A stretch of DNA of 64,000 bases from Oscillospiraceae bacterium (GCA_031255415.1 JAIRSO010000066.1:1-64000), one strand, 5' to 3'; shown: positions 2,403-8,089, numbered from the stretch's first letter. Notes: generated by a model not told the origin, from the letters alone. Program-made: numbers and translations.

Positions 2403-2437
2403 AAGCCGGAGAAGGACGCGCCTTCTCCGGCTTTTTT
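2403..2437 (+). terminator. Rho-independent terminator after pyrH
   Basis: AAGCCGGAGAAGG-ACGCG-CCTTCTCCGGCTTTTTT. Confidence 0.9.
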
Positions 2438-2926
2438 GTCCGTGGAAATCGCGGAGGCGCAGGGCGGCTCTCCCGGTTCGCGTGGGTTGTTTGCCCGAAG
2501 CGGCGGTTTCGCTTATTTTCCCTTTGTCCCCCGGTATTGCGCGCGTACTCGCGCGTTGATCGCCGCGCGGCGCGAAAATAGGCTTACAGCCAGCCTTTTC
2601 CGCATAGATTTCGGCGCAGGATCATTTGGAAGGGTTGATATAGATGGCGTCTGGCATAGGAAAAAGTCAAGCGCAAGGCGGGATTTCTTGGGATTCAGGG
2701 ACGGCGCGGAAGCGGGAGCGTGTCCCCCGCGCGCCTCGCGCGGAGCGGGAAAACACCGCGCCGCGCATTCACAGCCCGTCCCTTTTTGAATACTCGGCAC
2801 GAGCCGGAAGCCGGAAGTTAGTGTGATCGGTTCAAAGAACGAACGCCGCGGCGGGTGCAGCCGCTGTATAGGTATAAGCAGGTTCGGACGCTGCGCGAGG
2901 CGGCCGGCCGGTTGTCAGGAGGCGCC

Positions 2927-5900
2927 ATGTTTGATCAAAGTAGTGGCATGAACTACGGTCCGGGTTCGTTGTACCAGCCGGGAGCCGCGCCGCCTTACCA
3001 GGGCGCGGATCTGAACAGCGCCGCCTGGCAGCAGCCTGGTCTCGCGTATGGCGGGGATCCTTACGGATACGGATACCAGAACGCCGGCGCGTATGGCGGC
3101 GCGTATGGCGGTGCGTATGGCGCGGCGGGCTATTACGGCGAACCCGCGCCCGGCGCGCCCGCGTATGCTCCGGGCGGCGGCGCGTACGCGGATACGTATG
3201 GCGGCGCTCCGCCGCCGCCAACGCAGGATCCTTACGGACTCGCGCAAGCGTCGCCCGCTCTCGCGCACGGCAACGTGACGTGGTTCCCGCCATTCTCCGC
3301 GCAGGGCGGCCCGCCGCTATCGGGCGCGCCGGATCTACCTCTTCCGCCTCCGCCGGCTCCGTCGCCTCCGCCTGCGGCGCAGTGCCCGCCGGGCACGCGT
3401 TACGATCCTGTTCTAGGCATTTGCGTGCCCGACGAGGATTTCGCGCCCGCGCCGCCTATGCCGCAGACTCCGCTCGCGCCGCCCGCGCCGCCTCCTCCCG
3501 CTCCGGAGCTGGTCGCCGCAGAGCAGTTAGCGTCGTCCGTCACTCCATATACATCGCCGCCGCTTGCCGTCCCGCACTACTGCCCGCCCGGCACGCATTA
3601 CGAGCCTGGTTATGGCTGCGTGCCCGACGCGCGGTACACCTGCCCGCCCGGCATGCATTTCGAGCCGGGGATCGGGTGCGTGCCCGACCAGAATGTCGAG
3701 TGCCCGCAAGGCTCGCACTTCGAGCCGGGGCGCGGCTGCGTGCTGGATATAGATACCCAATCCCCAGGATGCTGTCCCGCGGGCTGGCATTTCGTGGTGG
3801 GATACGGCTGCGTGTGGAACGGATCGGACGCGGCGGAGGATTGTCCTCCCGGCTGGCACTTCGTGCCGGAGTACGGCTGCGTATGGAATCACTCCGTGCC
3901 CGAGCGCGCGCATAAGTGCCCCGACGGCTGGCATTATGAACCGGGCTACGGCTGCGTGATCTCGCCGCCCGCGCCTCGGGAGCGGCATTGCCCTCCGGGT
4001 CAGTATTACAACCCGGAACTGGAGATGTGCGTAATCGATACCTGCCCGGAGCACATGCACTACGAGCCCGCGATGGGCACATGCGTATGGGGACCGACGT
4101 GCAGGCCGGGGTATCATTATGAAGCGGGGCAGGGCTGCGTGCCCGGGCCGGCGCACCCCGTCTGCCCGCCCGACTCGCACTTCGTTGAGGGCATAGGCTG
4201 CGTGCTCGATCACGAGTACGGCGAGGACTGCCCGGACGGTTTCCACTTTGAGCCGGGTTACGGCTGCGTGTTCGGGCCTGCTGAATGCCCGCCGGATAGC
4301 TATTACGTGCCGGGGATCGGCTGCGTATACGGCCCCGCCGCCGTCGAGTGCGATACCTGCCCCGAAGGCATGCGGTATCTGCCCGGCATAGGCTGCGTTT
4401 GCACAGACCTGTTCTGCGCGGACGGCATGCGCTTCCAGCCGGGGGTGGGATGCGTGGCGGATACGGGCGCTACCGGGGTCACGTGTCCCGACGGCTGCAC
4501 ATATATTACAGGAGTGGGATGCGTCCGCGCTCAGCGTTCGGATGAGGACGCTTGCGTGCCAGGCAGCCACCTTGTGCCCGGCATAGGCTGCGTCGCGGAC
4601 GGATGCGACTGCCCCGACGGCTCGATGTACATTCCCGGCATAGGCTGCGTCAGCCTGACGGGCGTTTGCCCTGCGGGATCGTATTATGTCGCGGGGGTCG
4701 GCTGCGTCGTCGGGCCGGAATTATGCGGCTGCGAGGACGGACCGACCGGTTCGCGCCGCGTGCCCGGAGTGGGTTGGGTATGGAACGACGCGCCGCAGGA
4801 CGATAACATATTCCCTCTGGAAGGTATCGGTTATGTAAGGAGCGACGGCTCCTGCCCGGGTGCGTTCTACTATGTGCCCGGCGTGGGATGCGTATACGGC
4901 CCTGATACGATGCCCATATTCAGCCCGACCGGACCGACCGCGCTGTGCGGCGACGGGTTGGTCTACACGCCGGGTATCGGATGCGTGGATGATATCGGGC
5001 TTGGAGGAACCTGCCCGGACGGATCGGTATACATGCCCGAGATCGGCTGCGTATGCGCGGACGCGCAGTGCCCCGACGGTACCTTCTATGTGCCCGGCGT
5101 AGGCTGCGTATGCGGGGTCTCCGGACCGGAAGGCTCGCTGTGCCCGACTGGTTCGCGCATGGCTCCAGGCGTGGGATGCGTGTACGACGCGTTGATCTGC
5201 CCGACAGGGTTCAGGCGGCTGCCCGGCATTGGCTGCGTGATGGGCGGCGGGTTCGATCCGGAGGATACGGTATTCATCCCCGGCGTGGGCAGCGTATACC
5301 GCCCGAACGGCCCGGACGCTCCCGTGTGCCCGCCTGGATCGTACTTCATGCCCGGCGTTGGATGCATACTGGGGCAAGGCCCGAACTGCCCGATCACCCC
5401 GTGCCCGCCTGGATCGCACTTTGTATCCGGCGTTGGATGCGTGATGAACGGCGGCTCAAGGCTGGCTTCGTCGTCGAGGCCGTGCCCGCCTGGCGCGAAG
5501 TTCGTGCCGGGATACGGATGCGTCACAACCCCCAATCCCGTGTGCGGGCCTTGCGACAGCCCGTGTCCGCCCGATTCGCGGTATGTCCCGGGCGTTGGAT
5601 GCGTGCTGAACGATTGCGACGACGACTGCGACGACAGCCGGTACCCGACTGGTCCGACTTGGGGATGGTACGGCCCCGGCTTCGGCGGCACGATCAACCT
5701 CAACATCAACGTGACCTGTGGCAATGGGTGTATGTGGCCGACGGAGCCTCTGCCTACCGGGTCGTGGCCTTGGCCGCCGTATCCCTACCCGCAGTGCCCA
5801 TGCCCGCCGGTGTTCCCGATATTCCCGCCCATGCCGCCCCCGATAATGCCCCCGCCGATAATGCCGCCGCCCTTCCCCCCGCCTCCGCCGCCGATGTGCC

Positions 5901-6313
5901 CGCCGGGATCGTCGTTCGTGCCGGAGATGGGATGCGTAGGCGACGCGCCCTGCCAGTGCCCGCCGGGATCGCATTATGATCCGAAACTGTGTGTGTGCGT
6001 CGGGGATATCGCGTGCCAGCCTTGCGTGAGATGCGGACGCTTGCCTTGCGTCTGCCCGCCTGGAGGAGGCCCGCCCTATACGCCGCCTCCGGTTGGGGAC
6101 TGTCCGCCTGGAGCGCGCTATGATCCGGGGACGCGCGGGTGTGTGGGCGATATAGTATCCCTATCCCTGCCGGGAGGTCCCGCGCCGCCGTGGATACCCA
6201 GAGCTCCCGACTCCGCGTATGACGGATTCGGCTCGGCGCGGCCCGACGACTCCGTTGATTATAACGAAACCCGCGCGCCGATCTTACCCAATTCTGAACC
6301 AGGAGGGGCTTAG
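2927..6313 (+). CDS. Giant Cys-rich tandem-repeat protein (about 1128 aa) with Gly/Tyr-rich N-terminus; function unknown, possibly a spore-surface structural protein
   Basis: ATG at 2927 (MFDQSSGMNYGPG) preceded by AGGAGG; about 35 by-eye copies of CPPGxx[YF]xPGxGCV; no hydrophobic signal peptide. Confidence 0.85.
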   Translation: MFDQSSGMNYGPGSLYQPGAAPPYQGADLNSAAWQQPGLAYGGDPYGYGYQNAGAYGGAYGGAYGAAGYYGEPAPGAPAYAPGGGAYADTYGGAPPPPTQDPYGLAQASPALAHGNVTWFPPFSAQGGPPLSGAPDLPLPPPPAPSPPPAAQCPPGTRYDPVLGICVPDEDFAPAPPMPQTPLAPPAPPPPAPELVAAEQLASSVTPYTSPPLAVPHYCPPGTHYEPGYGCVPDARYTCPPGMHFEPGIGCVPDQNVECPQGSHFEPGRGCVLDIDTQSPGCCPAGWHFVVGYGCVWNGSDAAEDCPPGWHFVPEYGCVWNHSVPERAHKCPDGWHYEPGYGCVISPPAPRERHCPPGQYYNPELEMCVIDTCPEHMHYEPAMGTCVWGPTCRPGYHYEAGQGCVPGPAHPVCPPDSHFVEGIGCVLDHEYGEDCPDGFHFEPGYGCVFGPAECPPDSYYVPGIGCVYGPAAVECDTCPEGMRYLPGIGCVCTDLFCADGMRFQPGVGCVADTGATGVTCPDGCTYITGVGCVRAQRSDEDACVPGSHLVPGIGCVADGCDCPDGSMYIPGIGCVSLTGVCPAGSYYVAGVGCVVGPELCGCEDGPTGSRRVPGVGWVWNDAPQDDNIFPLEGIGYVRSDGSCPGAFYYVPGVGCVYGPDTMPIFSPTGPTALCGDGLVYTPGIGCVDDIGLGGTCPDGSVYMPEIGCVCADAQCPDGTFYVPGVGCVCGVSGPEGSLCPTGSRMAPGVGCVYDALICPTGFRRLPGIGCVMGGGFDPEDTVFIPGVGSVYRPNGPDAPVCPPGSYFMPGVGCILGQGPNCPITPCPPGSHFVSGVGCVMNGGSRLASSSRPCPPGAKFVPGYGCVTTPNPVCGPCDSPCPPDSRYVPGVGCVLNDCDDDCDDSRYPTGPTWGWYGPGFGGTINLNINVTCGNGCMWPTEPLPTGSWPWPPYPYPQCPCPPVFPIFPPMPPPIMPPPIMPPPFPPPPPPMCPPGSSFVPEMGCVGDAPCQCPPGSHYDPKLCVCVGDIACQPCVRCGRLPCVCPPGGGPPYTPPPVGDCPPGARYDPGTRGCVGDIVSLSLPGGPAPPWIPRAPDSAYDGFGSARPDDSVDYNETRAPILPNSEPGGA

Positions 6314-6315
6314 TC

Positions 6316-7875
6316 ATGACTCCCATGAACCCCGCTTCATATCCAGGCCAGTACTGTCCGGGCGGTTATCAACAGCCATTCTGCCCGAGCGGCACACATT
6401 TCGTGTGGGGGATTGGCTGCGTACCCGATGGTTCCGGGCCGAATCCGGAGCCGTGTCCTGGTACGCCGCCTCCGCCGCCCCCCGATCCCTGCCCGCCTGT
6501 CTGCGTTGACCCGGAGTGCGAGCGCGGGTGTCCGGACGGGATGCATTACGAGCGTGGATGCGGCTGCGTGCCCGATATGCCGCCCTGCCCGCCGCCTTGC
6601 CCTCCGCCCTGCCCGCCGCCTCCCGCTCCGCCTTGCCCGCCGCCATGTCCTCCGCCTCCCGCGCCACCCTGCCCCGCGCCCTGTCCGCCGTCCCCTGCGC
6701 CGTGCCCGCCTTCGCCGCCGACATGCCCGCCCGTGTGCGAGCCTGTCTGCTGCCCGCCGGGTACGCATCTGGTACCCGGGGTGGGATGCGTGGTAGACTT
6801 CGCCTGCCCGCCTGGATCGCACTATGAACCGGGGCGCGGCTGCGTGCAGAGCGTGGGCTGCCCGCCCGGCTACTGCTACGATCCCGAGCGCGGCTGCGTC
6901 GACGAGCATGGATGCCCGATAGGCACGCACTTTGTCCACGGATATGGATGCGTGCAGGATCCTCAATGCCCCGATGGGTTCCATTACGAGTGCGGAATCG
7001 GGTGCGTGGCGGGGCCGCCCTGCCCGCCCGGCAAGCATTTCGAGTATGGTATGGGCTGCGTAGACGGCGAGCCGTGCGGCGAAGGCCAGTATTACATACC
7101 GGGCAAAGGCTGCGCGCCCGCTCCGCAGTGCCCGCCAGGTATGACATACGATCACTTCCGCGGATGCGTTCCGGTGGTCTGCGGCTCCAATGAGCACTAT
7201 GTGCCAGGCTACGGCTGCGTGAAGGACGATACCCCCGCATGCCCGCCAGGCTCCAAGTATTACCCGGGCTACGGATGCATGCCCGATCCGGACTATGATC
7301 CCTGCCCGCCTCCGCCCGATCCTCCGCCGCCGCATGTGATATGCCCGTCGCCAACGCCGCCGTATCCGCCAGCGCCGATGTATCCCGCTTACTGCGAGAC
7401 CTGCGGCTGCCAGCGTCCATGCTCGTGCGACGAGGAGCACGGTCGCCGCCCGCCTACGCCAAGACCATGCCCGCAATGCCATCGCTCGCCGTGCGAGTGC
7501 CATCGCGGTCACGCTCAACCGTGGCGCGACGGTTATCCCGGATATGGTTATAGGGATTATTGGCGGCATGAACCGCCTCGCGCGCCGATGATCGATCCCG
7601 CTATGGGTATCAAGGAGCCTTGCCACGCGCAGTGCCGCTGCCATGAACGCGGCGAACCGTGCCGATGCCGCGAGCGCGGGGAACCGTGCAAGTGCATCCC
7701 GCCGCGCGAGGAGAAGGAACCGGTTCGCCAGGTCGGGGAACCTAGAACCAGGCGCAGCGTGCTGATGACGCTCGACCCGGCAACCGACTTGAACGGCACC
7801 GTCCAGCTCCAGCGCTGGGATAAAAAGAAACCATGGCTCAGAACCGGATGCGAACGCATCGGGGCAAGACCGTAA
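6316..7875 (+). CDS. Second Cys-rich tandem-repeat protein (519 aa) with Pro/Cys-rich linkers and a Cys/His/Arg-rich C-terminus
   Basis: Starts 3 nt after the previous stop, preceded by AGGAGG; about 12 repeats of the same CPxGxx[YF]xxGxGCV unit; GEPCRCRERGEPCKC tail. Confidence 0.85.
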   Translation: MTPMNPASYPGQYCPGGYQQPFCPSGTHFVWGIGCVPDGSGPNPEPCPGTPPPPPPDPCPPVCVDPECERGCPDGMHYERGCGCVPDMPPCPPPCPPPCPPPPAPPCPPPCPPPPAPPCPAPCPPSPAPCPPSPPTCPPVCEPVCCPPGTHLVPGVGCVVDFACPPGSHYEPGRGCVQSVGCPPGYCYDPERGCVDEHGCPIGTHFVHGYGCVQDPQCPDGFHYECGIGCVAGPPCPPGKHFEYGMGCVDGEPCGEGQYYIPGKGCAPAPQCPPGMTYDHFRGCVPVVCGSNEHYVPGYGCVKDDTPACPPGSKYYPGYGCMPDPDYDPCPPPPDPPPPHVICPSPTPPYPPAPMYPAYCETCGCQRPCSCDEEHGRRPPTPRPCPQCHRSPCECHRGHAQPWRDGYPGYGYRDYWRHEPPRAPMIDPAMGIKEPCHAQCRCHERGEPCRCRERGEPCKCIPPREEKEPVRQVGEPRTRRSVLMTLDPATDLNGTVQLQRWDKKKPWLRTGCERIGARP

Positions 7876-7939
7876 AGTATCCCGCGCGCTAAGGCTGGCT
7901 CTCATATATGGTTGGGGTACGGGGCGCGGTTTCATACAA

Positions 7940-7971
7940 GGGTTTGTTGTAAGTGCGCTTACAACAAACCC
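7940..7971. terminator. Perfect inverted repeat/hairpin downstream of the Cys-rich operon, possible terminator (no clear T-tract)
   Basis: GGGTTTGTTGTAAG-TGCG-CTTACAACAAACCC. Confidence 0.5.
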
Positions 7972-8001
7972 TGTCCCCATTTTGGCACGATCGCGCAACA
8001 C

Positions 8002-8089
8002 GCCGTCAAGGTCGGGTAGTATTTTCCGATGTGCATACCGGACGGACACGGTATGCCCATCGGAAAATCTCCACCCTACCCTTGACGGC
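8002..8089. repeat. Long imperfect inverted repeat with about 40-nt arms (structured RNA or MITE-like)
   Basis: GCCGTCAAGGTCGGGTAGTATTTTCCGATGTGCATACCG (8002-8040), 8-nt loop, CGGTATGCCCATCGGAAAATCTCCACCCTACCCTTGACGGC (8049-8089). Confidence 0.75.

Follow-up and report, generated by a model that had tools for sequence, protein, structure and literature searches.

We propose that two adjacent genes of an Oscillospiraceae bacterium, ORF1 and ORF2, rather likely encode disulfide-linked structural proteins that the mother cell assembles on the spore surface, in the coat or the exosporium. This reading draws on the tandem repeats and paired cysteines of both proteins, their lack of an export signal, the purifying selection acting on the genes, the sporulation genes of the host and the SigmaK-consensus promoters of small paralogues. 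The genes lie in a window of 64,000 nucleotides (the whole stretch of DNA analysed), which belongs to an incomplete assembly (2.15 Mb, 104 contigs, 88% complete).

Both proteins are built on a unit of 13-14 residues, cysteine to cysteine, that follows the form C-P-x-G-x-x-[YF]-x5/6-C-V and is strung into long arrays (table 1). The two cysteines are present in 32 units of ORF1 and in 12 of ORF2, ten of the latter forming a near-regular 18-residue array (residues 146-321); about three cysteine-less units, among them a NIFPLEGIGYV unit read directly from the sequence, bring the total of ORF1 to about 35. A strict form of the motif occurs 26 times in ORF1 and 12 times in ORF2, whereas 2000 shuffles per protein yield on average 0.017 for ORF1 and 0.010 for ORF2, and at most 2 and 1; the repeats are far above chance in both. 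Cysteine makes up 7.9% of ORF1 and 11.9% of ORF2 (62-89 cysteines per protein) and proline 18% and 25%, while lysine occurs only three times in ORF1. No signal-peptide-like or transmembrane-like stretch is present in either protein, the maximum 19-residue Kyte-Doolittle mean being 1.37 for ORF1 and 1.14 for ORF2. A first-pass annotation of this DNA had already counted about 35 and 12 repeats, placed an AGGAGG before each gene and reported neither signal peptide nor transmembrane segment, all of which is borne out here; its gene coordinates and the adjacency of the genes also stand, but the spacing of 3 nt does not, the gap from stop to start being 2 nt.

Table 1. Features of the ORF1-ORF2 locus (window coordinates).
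Feature	Position	Strand	Description
Terminator-like hairpin	2403-2433		After pyrH
GCATAnnnT box	2602..2611	+	Candidate -10 (SigmaE/SigmaK-like) of the ORF1 leader; four-genome alignment
Conserved leader element	2774..2790	+	AGCCCGTCCCTTTTTGA (relatives: GGCTTGCCCCTTTTTGA); invariant CCTTTTT, four genomes
ORF1 ribosome-binding site	2916..2922	+	CAGGAGG; start context conserved in four genomes
ORF1	2927..6313	+	1128 aa: N-terminal region rich in Tyr/Gly, followed by ~35 Cys-hairpin units and their Pro-rich spacers
ORF1 main repeat array	3581..5536	+	Residues about 219-870
ORF2 ribosome-binding site	6301..6306	+	AGGAGG; overlaps ORF1 end
ORF2	6316..7875	+	519 aa: 12 Cys-hairpin units, then Cys-rich tail
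Inverted repeat	7939..7972	+	Perfect, 15 bp, 4-nt loop; after ORF2

By inspection, ORF1 is preceded by rpsB-tsf-pyrH, and the perfect inverted repeat that follows ORF2 is the probable end of a two-gene transcript. Another inverted repeat (20 bp, 95%, 8-nt loop) lies at 8021-8068, between ORF2 and a sensor-kinase gene. G093, another species of the genus, likewise has the two genes after pyrH in the same order, with 66-78% protein identity, the locus being split over two contigs that both end inside ORF1. The pN/pS ratio is 0.24 for the N part of ORF1, 0.35 for its C part and 0.28 for ORF2, with 0.23 for pyrH; ORF1 and ORF2 are real genes under purifying selection. Homologues of ORF1 also occur in two further genera of the family. 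The first, in G044 (L023 3-5636, P0004), has at least 1878 residues and runs off its contig, closing at the contig edge with a duplicated segment some 147 residues long. The second, in G013 (L024 4441-7824, P0003), has 1127 residues and no adjoining ORF2-like gene; it contains a run of at least eight units of 19 residues that are nearly identical (CPxGTHWDxxxxxCVPDV), as well as an insert rich in His, Asp and Cys, and a calreticulin match on it was judged compositional. A Tyr/Gly- or Gln-rich N-terminus is common to the ORF1 homologues, and single repeat units pair one to one in alignments between genera, which argues that the array is old and that its units have not been freely interchanged. 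An assembly artefact is ruled out by the recurrence of the genes after pyrH in another species and of ORF1 in two further genera. A phage or plasmid origin was rejected as well, tblastn returning no match for ORF2 in phages or for ORF1 in plasmids and no relative being present in viral contigs.

A conserved leader of about 190 nt lies upstream of ORF1 (2600-2790), with equivalents in L022, L024 and L023. Its longest invariant runs across the four genomes are GCATA, within GCATAnnnT, and CCTTTTT; the element containing the latter occurs in exact form once each in G093 and G013, upstream of the ORF1 homologue only. The idea that an intrinsic terminator separates the leader from ORF1 was discarded, as the element folds weakly in the relatives and forms no stable hairpin here, and an Rfam search of the leader returned no known RNA. 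The leader may act in regulation or may itself be a small gene.

In the family, of which 309 genomes were searched, the core profile of the repeat (A2) and a two-unit profile (A4) matched only in the source genome (G000), G093, G044 and G013. A4 had no match in 391 further genomes drawn from the class, and A2 none at E 1e-10 in 395 further ones drawn from the order; both surveys are samples, in which divergent repeats below threshold could escape. The absence of ORF1/ORF2 matches from two members of the genus (G029 and G068) is uninformative, because their contigs stop 149 and 252 bp past pyrH, short of the expected start of ORF1. A scan of GTDB representatives returned three loci, in metagenome-assembled genomes titled Oscillospiraceae (Nm470_bin129, Nc350_bin71 and Pc512_bin41). 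Another Nm470 bin has the termite Neotermes meruensis as its source (PMC11707648), and at least one relative is of termite-gut origin. On this genome sampling, the repeat family is lineage-restricted, known to date from only a handful of related bacteria, and undescribed in the libraries searched.

That the genome carries spore genes, as had been annotated, is confirmed by SpoIVA and by gpr, spoIIP, ylbJ, ytfJ and yqfD, the last five read by inspection in the window. SpoIVA was found in the source genome, G013 and G044, that is in three of the three carriers searched, G093 lying outside the sample; this does not refute the spore-surface proposal, yet SpoIVA occurs in 37 of the 61 genomes searched, so its co-occurrence with the repeat is not discriminating, and most SpoIVA-bearing relatives are without the repeat. 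Away from the ORF1-ORF2 locus, the genome has a second cluster (L107 8546-13070), made up of genes for a beta-propeller and a small SpaA/carboxypeptidase-regulatory-like protein and, transcribed divergently, a pair of short Cys-rich CPPG genes, whose products of 170 and 176 aa are paralogues with the ORF1/ORF2-type unit. The cluster recurs in G068, G093 and G044 (with four CPPG genes) and partly in G013 (loci L108, L109, L037 and L088), and the 170-aa paralogue is present in all four genomes of the genus. Beside the cluster, a protein of 2123 aa with many repeated SpaA/SdrD-like segments was seen by inspection (L107 1370-7741). A few kb from the CPPG cluster of G044, an encapsulin shell gene of type 2A (PF19307, E 2.5e-87) adjoins a cysteine desulfurase gene (L037, G044:C24, 12216-14715), a possible tie between sulfur storage and the Cys-rich proteins.

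The SigmaK consensus known from Bacillus is AC-N16/17-CATAnnnTA. Between the divergent genes of the second cluster, it is present facing both ways in G000, G068 and G093, and facing the propeller gene in G044, so that seven sites fall in about 2 kb of strand sequence at the paralogue clusters, against 6.8 expected in the 561 kb scanned. Since the whole 561 kb contains 20 such sites, single ones elsewhere mean little. Upstream of spoIVA stands a SigmaE-like AATATA-N14-CATACCAT, which shows that CATA-type promoters are used in the host organism. These sequences point strongly to sporulation for the small paralogues, whose cluster is a candidate spore-surface locus without known families, and moderately for ORF1 and ORF2 themselves, where the invariant GCATAnnnT is in keeping with the proposal of the first-pass annotation but the -35 region is a poor fit to SigmaE and SigmaK alike. 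A rival reading is a scaffold or storage protein of the vegetative cytosol that has no connection with spores. Dozens of conserved cysteine pairs would be unusual in the reducing cytosol, the paralogues have SigmaK-type promoters, and a terminator-like hairpin and a gap of 557 nt separate pyrH from ORF1; hence this reading appears unlikely to us, even though the genes come after rpsB-tsf-pyrH, the promoter of ORF1 is not clearly of sporulation type and most sporulating relatives are without ORF1/ORF2.

The repeat had been taken to belong to no named domain, which is nearly right: ORF2 has no Pfam family match, but ORF1 has a single one, a 22-residue CBM_14 fragment (E 1.3e-6, profile positions 26-47 of 53). 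Half of CBM14 being the sole domain match, the HMM library search did not refute the spore-surface proposal through a known, characterised domain; NCBIfam and the PDB gave no match for either protein. Across ORF1 and several relatives, the CBM_14 fragment matches (E 1.3e-6 to 1.8e-12) are limited to positions 26-49 of the 53-position profile. What is shared with CBM14/peritrophin-A (PF01607) is the last hairpin, C4-C5, with the pattern C-P-x-G-x-x-[YF]-x5/6-C and a spacing closely similar to Cys450-Cys463, the conserved disulfide of CHIT1 in the last part of the domain (PMC4844120). In ORF1 and ORF2, however, one hairpin appears many times over and the rest of the fold is absent; there are two cysteines per unit instead of six in three disulfides, and the conserved surface Trp that CBM14 carries two residues after its fifth cysteine (CHIT1 Trp465) has a counterpart two residues after Cys2 in only three of the roughly 35 units of ORF1 and in none of those of ORF2. 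As the rest of the domain is missing, ORF1 and ORF2 are not CBM14 proteins, and membership is ruled out; the likeness of the hairpins may reflect common descent of one hairpin or convergence.

Even so, reduced CBM14 (peritrophin-type) modules might act as a chitin-binding adhesin that fixes spores or cells to insect-gut chitin, a function that could be combined with a spore-surface location. We regard this as quite unlikely: the recurrent fragment matches span only about 22 of 53 profile positions, without the other four cysteines; the spacing of the conserved CHIT1 disulfide (PMC4844120) is reproduced, but short Cys/Gly/Pro motifs can converge; the three Trp-bearing units of ORF1, which recall CHIT1 Trp465, are a small minority; and neither protein has an export signal, although a relative from a termite gut would suit such a role. 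Highly improbable, in our estimate, is the further scenario of a gut-bacterial clade, termite-associated at least in part, that multiplied one CBM14-type disulfide hairpin into chains of dozens of beads, a lineage-specific spore armour that keeps enough affinity for chitin to double as a host adhesin in the insect gut.

In the core alignment of the four ORF1 homologues, Cys1 and Cys2 are both present in 116 unit instances, both missing in 5 and single in none, after re-reading five one-residue register shifts (uncorrected 111/5/5, with Cys1 alone in none). Cysteines kept or lost together are the prediction of an intra-unit disulfide and equally of a two-cysteine metal site. AlphaFold2 models of a 3-unit segment (28 rows; pLDDT 66, pTM 0.32) and of a 10-unit segment (pLDDT 59, pTM 0.30) give each unit two short strands and a turn, as a hairpin would require, but at a low confidence that makes the beta-hairpin a proposal; a fold search with the 3-unit model retrieved no significant PDB match. 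Judging from cysteine co-conservation and these models, each unit is probably a disulfide-closed beta-hairpin. A metal- or thiol-storage protein, in which the paired cysteines hold metal ions and not disulfides, is very unlikely despite the high cysteine content and the His-rich inserts of the G013 and G044 homologues, given that there is one pair per unit, 11-12 residues apart, unlike the CxC/CxxC clusters usual in metallothioneins, that no metal-transport or metal-resistance gene was seen adjoining ORF1/ORF2 and that the Pro/Gly turn pattern persists in the cysteine-less units.

Homology to the CotY/CotZ/ExsY proteins was not detected: even with the E-value limit set at 1, no spore coat family of Pfam or NCBIfam, libraries that include a CotZ model, matched ORF1 or ORF2. 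The literature was also searched for coat proteins that are Cys-rich, built of tandem repeats and under SigmaK control, and no paper on them was found. CotY, ExsY, CsxA and CdeC are described as unrelated Cys-rich sequences that form disulfide-linked spore layers or sheets (PMC7333573; PMC7677010). Like ORF1 and ORF2, CotY/CotZ/ExsY of Bacillus are Cys-rich, being mother-cell proteins in disulfide-linked arrays (PMC7333573), but ORF1 and ORF2 are far longer and repeat-built. CsxA, of the exosporium basal layer in Clostridium sporogenes and C. botulinum group I (PMC7333573), shares with them a Cys-rich composition, no export signal and a spore-forming host; it has 25 cysteines and a hexagonal lattice, whereas ORF1 and ORF2 have 62-89 in regular tandem hairpins. 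CdeC of Clostridioides difficile is likewise Cys-rich, with 37 cysteines, sequence repeats, redox-dependent self-assembly and a spore-surface location (PMC7677010); the CPPG unit does not figure in this description, and no library match links either CsxA or CdeC to ORF1/ORF2. The csxA cluster of C. sporogenes, which includes collagen-like genes, sits between zapA and a U32 peptidase gene (PMC7333573), and the CPPG cluster of G044 also adjoins a gene read as a U32 peptidase, one of its members having a GFPGFPG run (Pfam Collagen 5.4e-4, below the family cut-off). The genome of the window yielded no close homologue of the G044 U32 protein, so this csxA-like neighbourhood rests on one genome and is a hint by analogy. 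An analogue of CotY/ExsY, CsxA and CdeC, rather than a demonstrated homologue, is the best explanation for ORF1 and ORF2.

Overall, the spore-surface hypothesis of the first-pass annotation gains indirect support from the host spore genes, the SigmaK-consensus promoters of the paralogues, conserved between species, the cysteine co-conservation and the neighbourhood in G044. Counting against it are the location of ORF1/ORF2 after housekeeping genes, a -35 that fits neither factor well, the lack of the repeat in most SpoIVA-bearing relatives, the hairpin model scores (pLDDT 59-66, pTM ~0.3) and the compatibility of paired cysteines with metal binding. If the proteins do belong to the spore surface, they would be synthesised in the cytosol of the mother cell while the spore forms and then deposited on the forespore. 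The Cys1-Cys2 disulfide of each unit would close its beta-hairpin, turning the proteins into chains of small rigid beads, about 35 in ORF1 and 12 in ORF2, and the cysteines left over from these pairs, in the ORF2 tail and in CxC and CC motifs, together with the Tyr-rich N-terminus of ORF1, would cross-link the chains into an insoluble layer. ORF1 and ORF2 would then work in the manner of CotY/ExsY, CsxA or CdeC.

Such a role would agree with a prediction in the literature that other spore formers build these layers from varied Cys-rich proteins of unrelated sequence (PMC7333573). It would add an unrelated protein architecture to the Cys-rich outer-layer proteins of spore formers, and the tiny, regular and easily expressed unit would make a good model for how disulfide-locked layers arise from a reducing cytosol. 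It would also describe some of what is lineage-specific on the surface of spores from uncultured gut bacteria.
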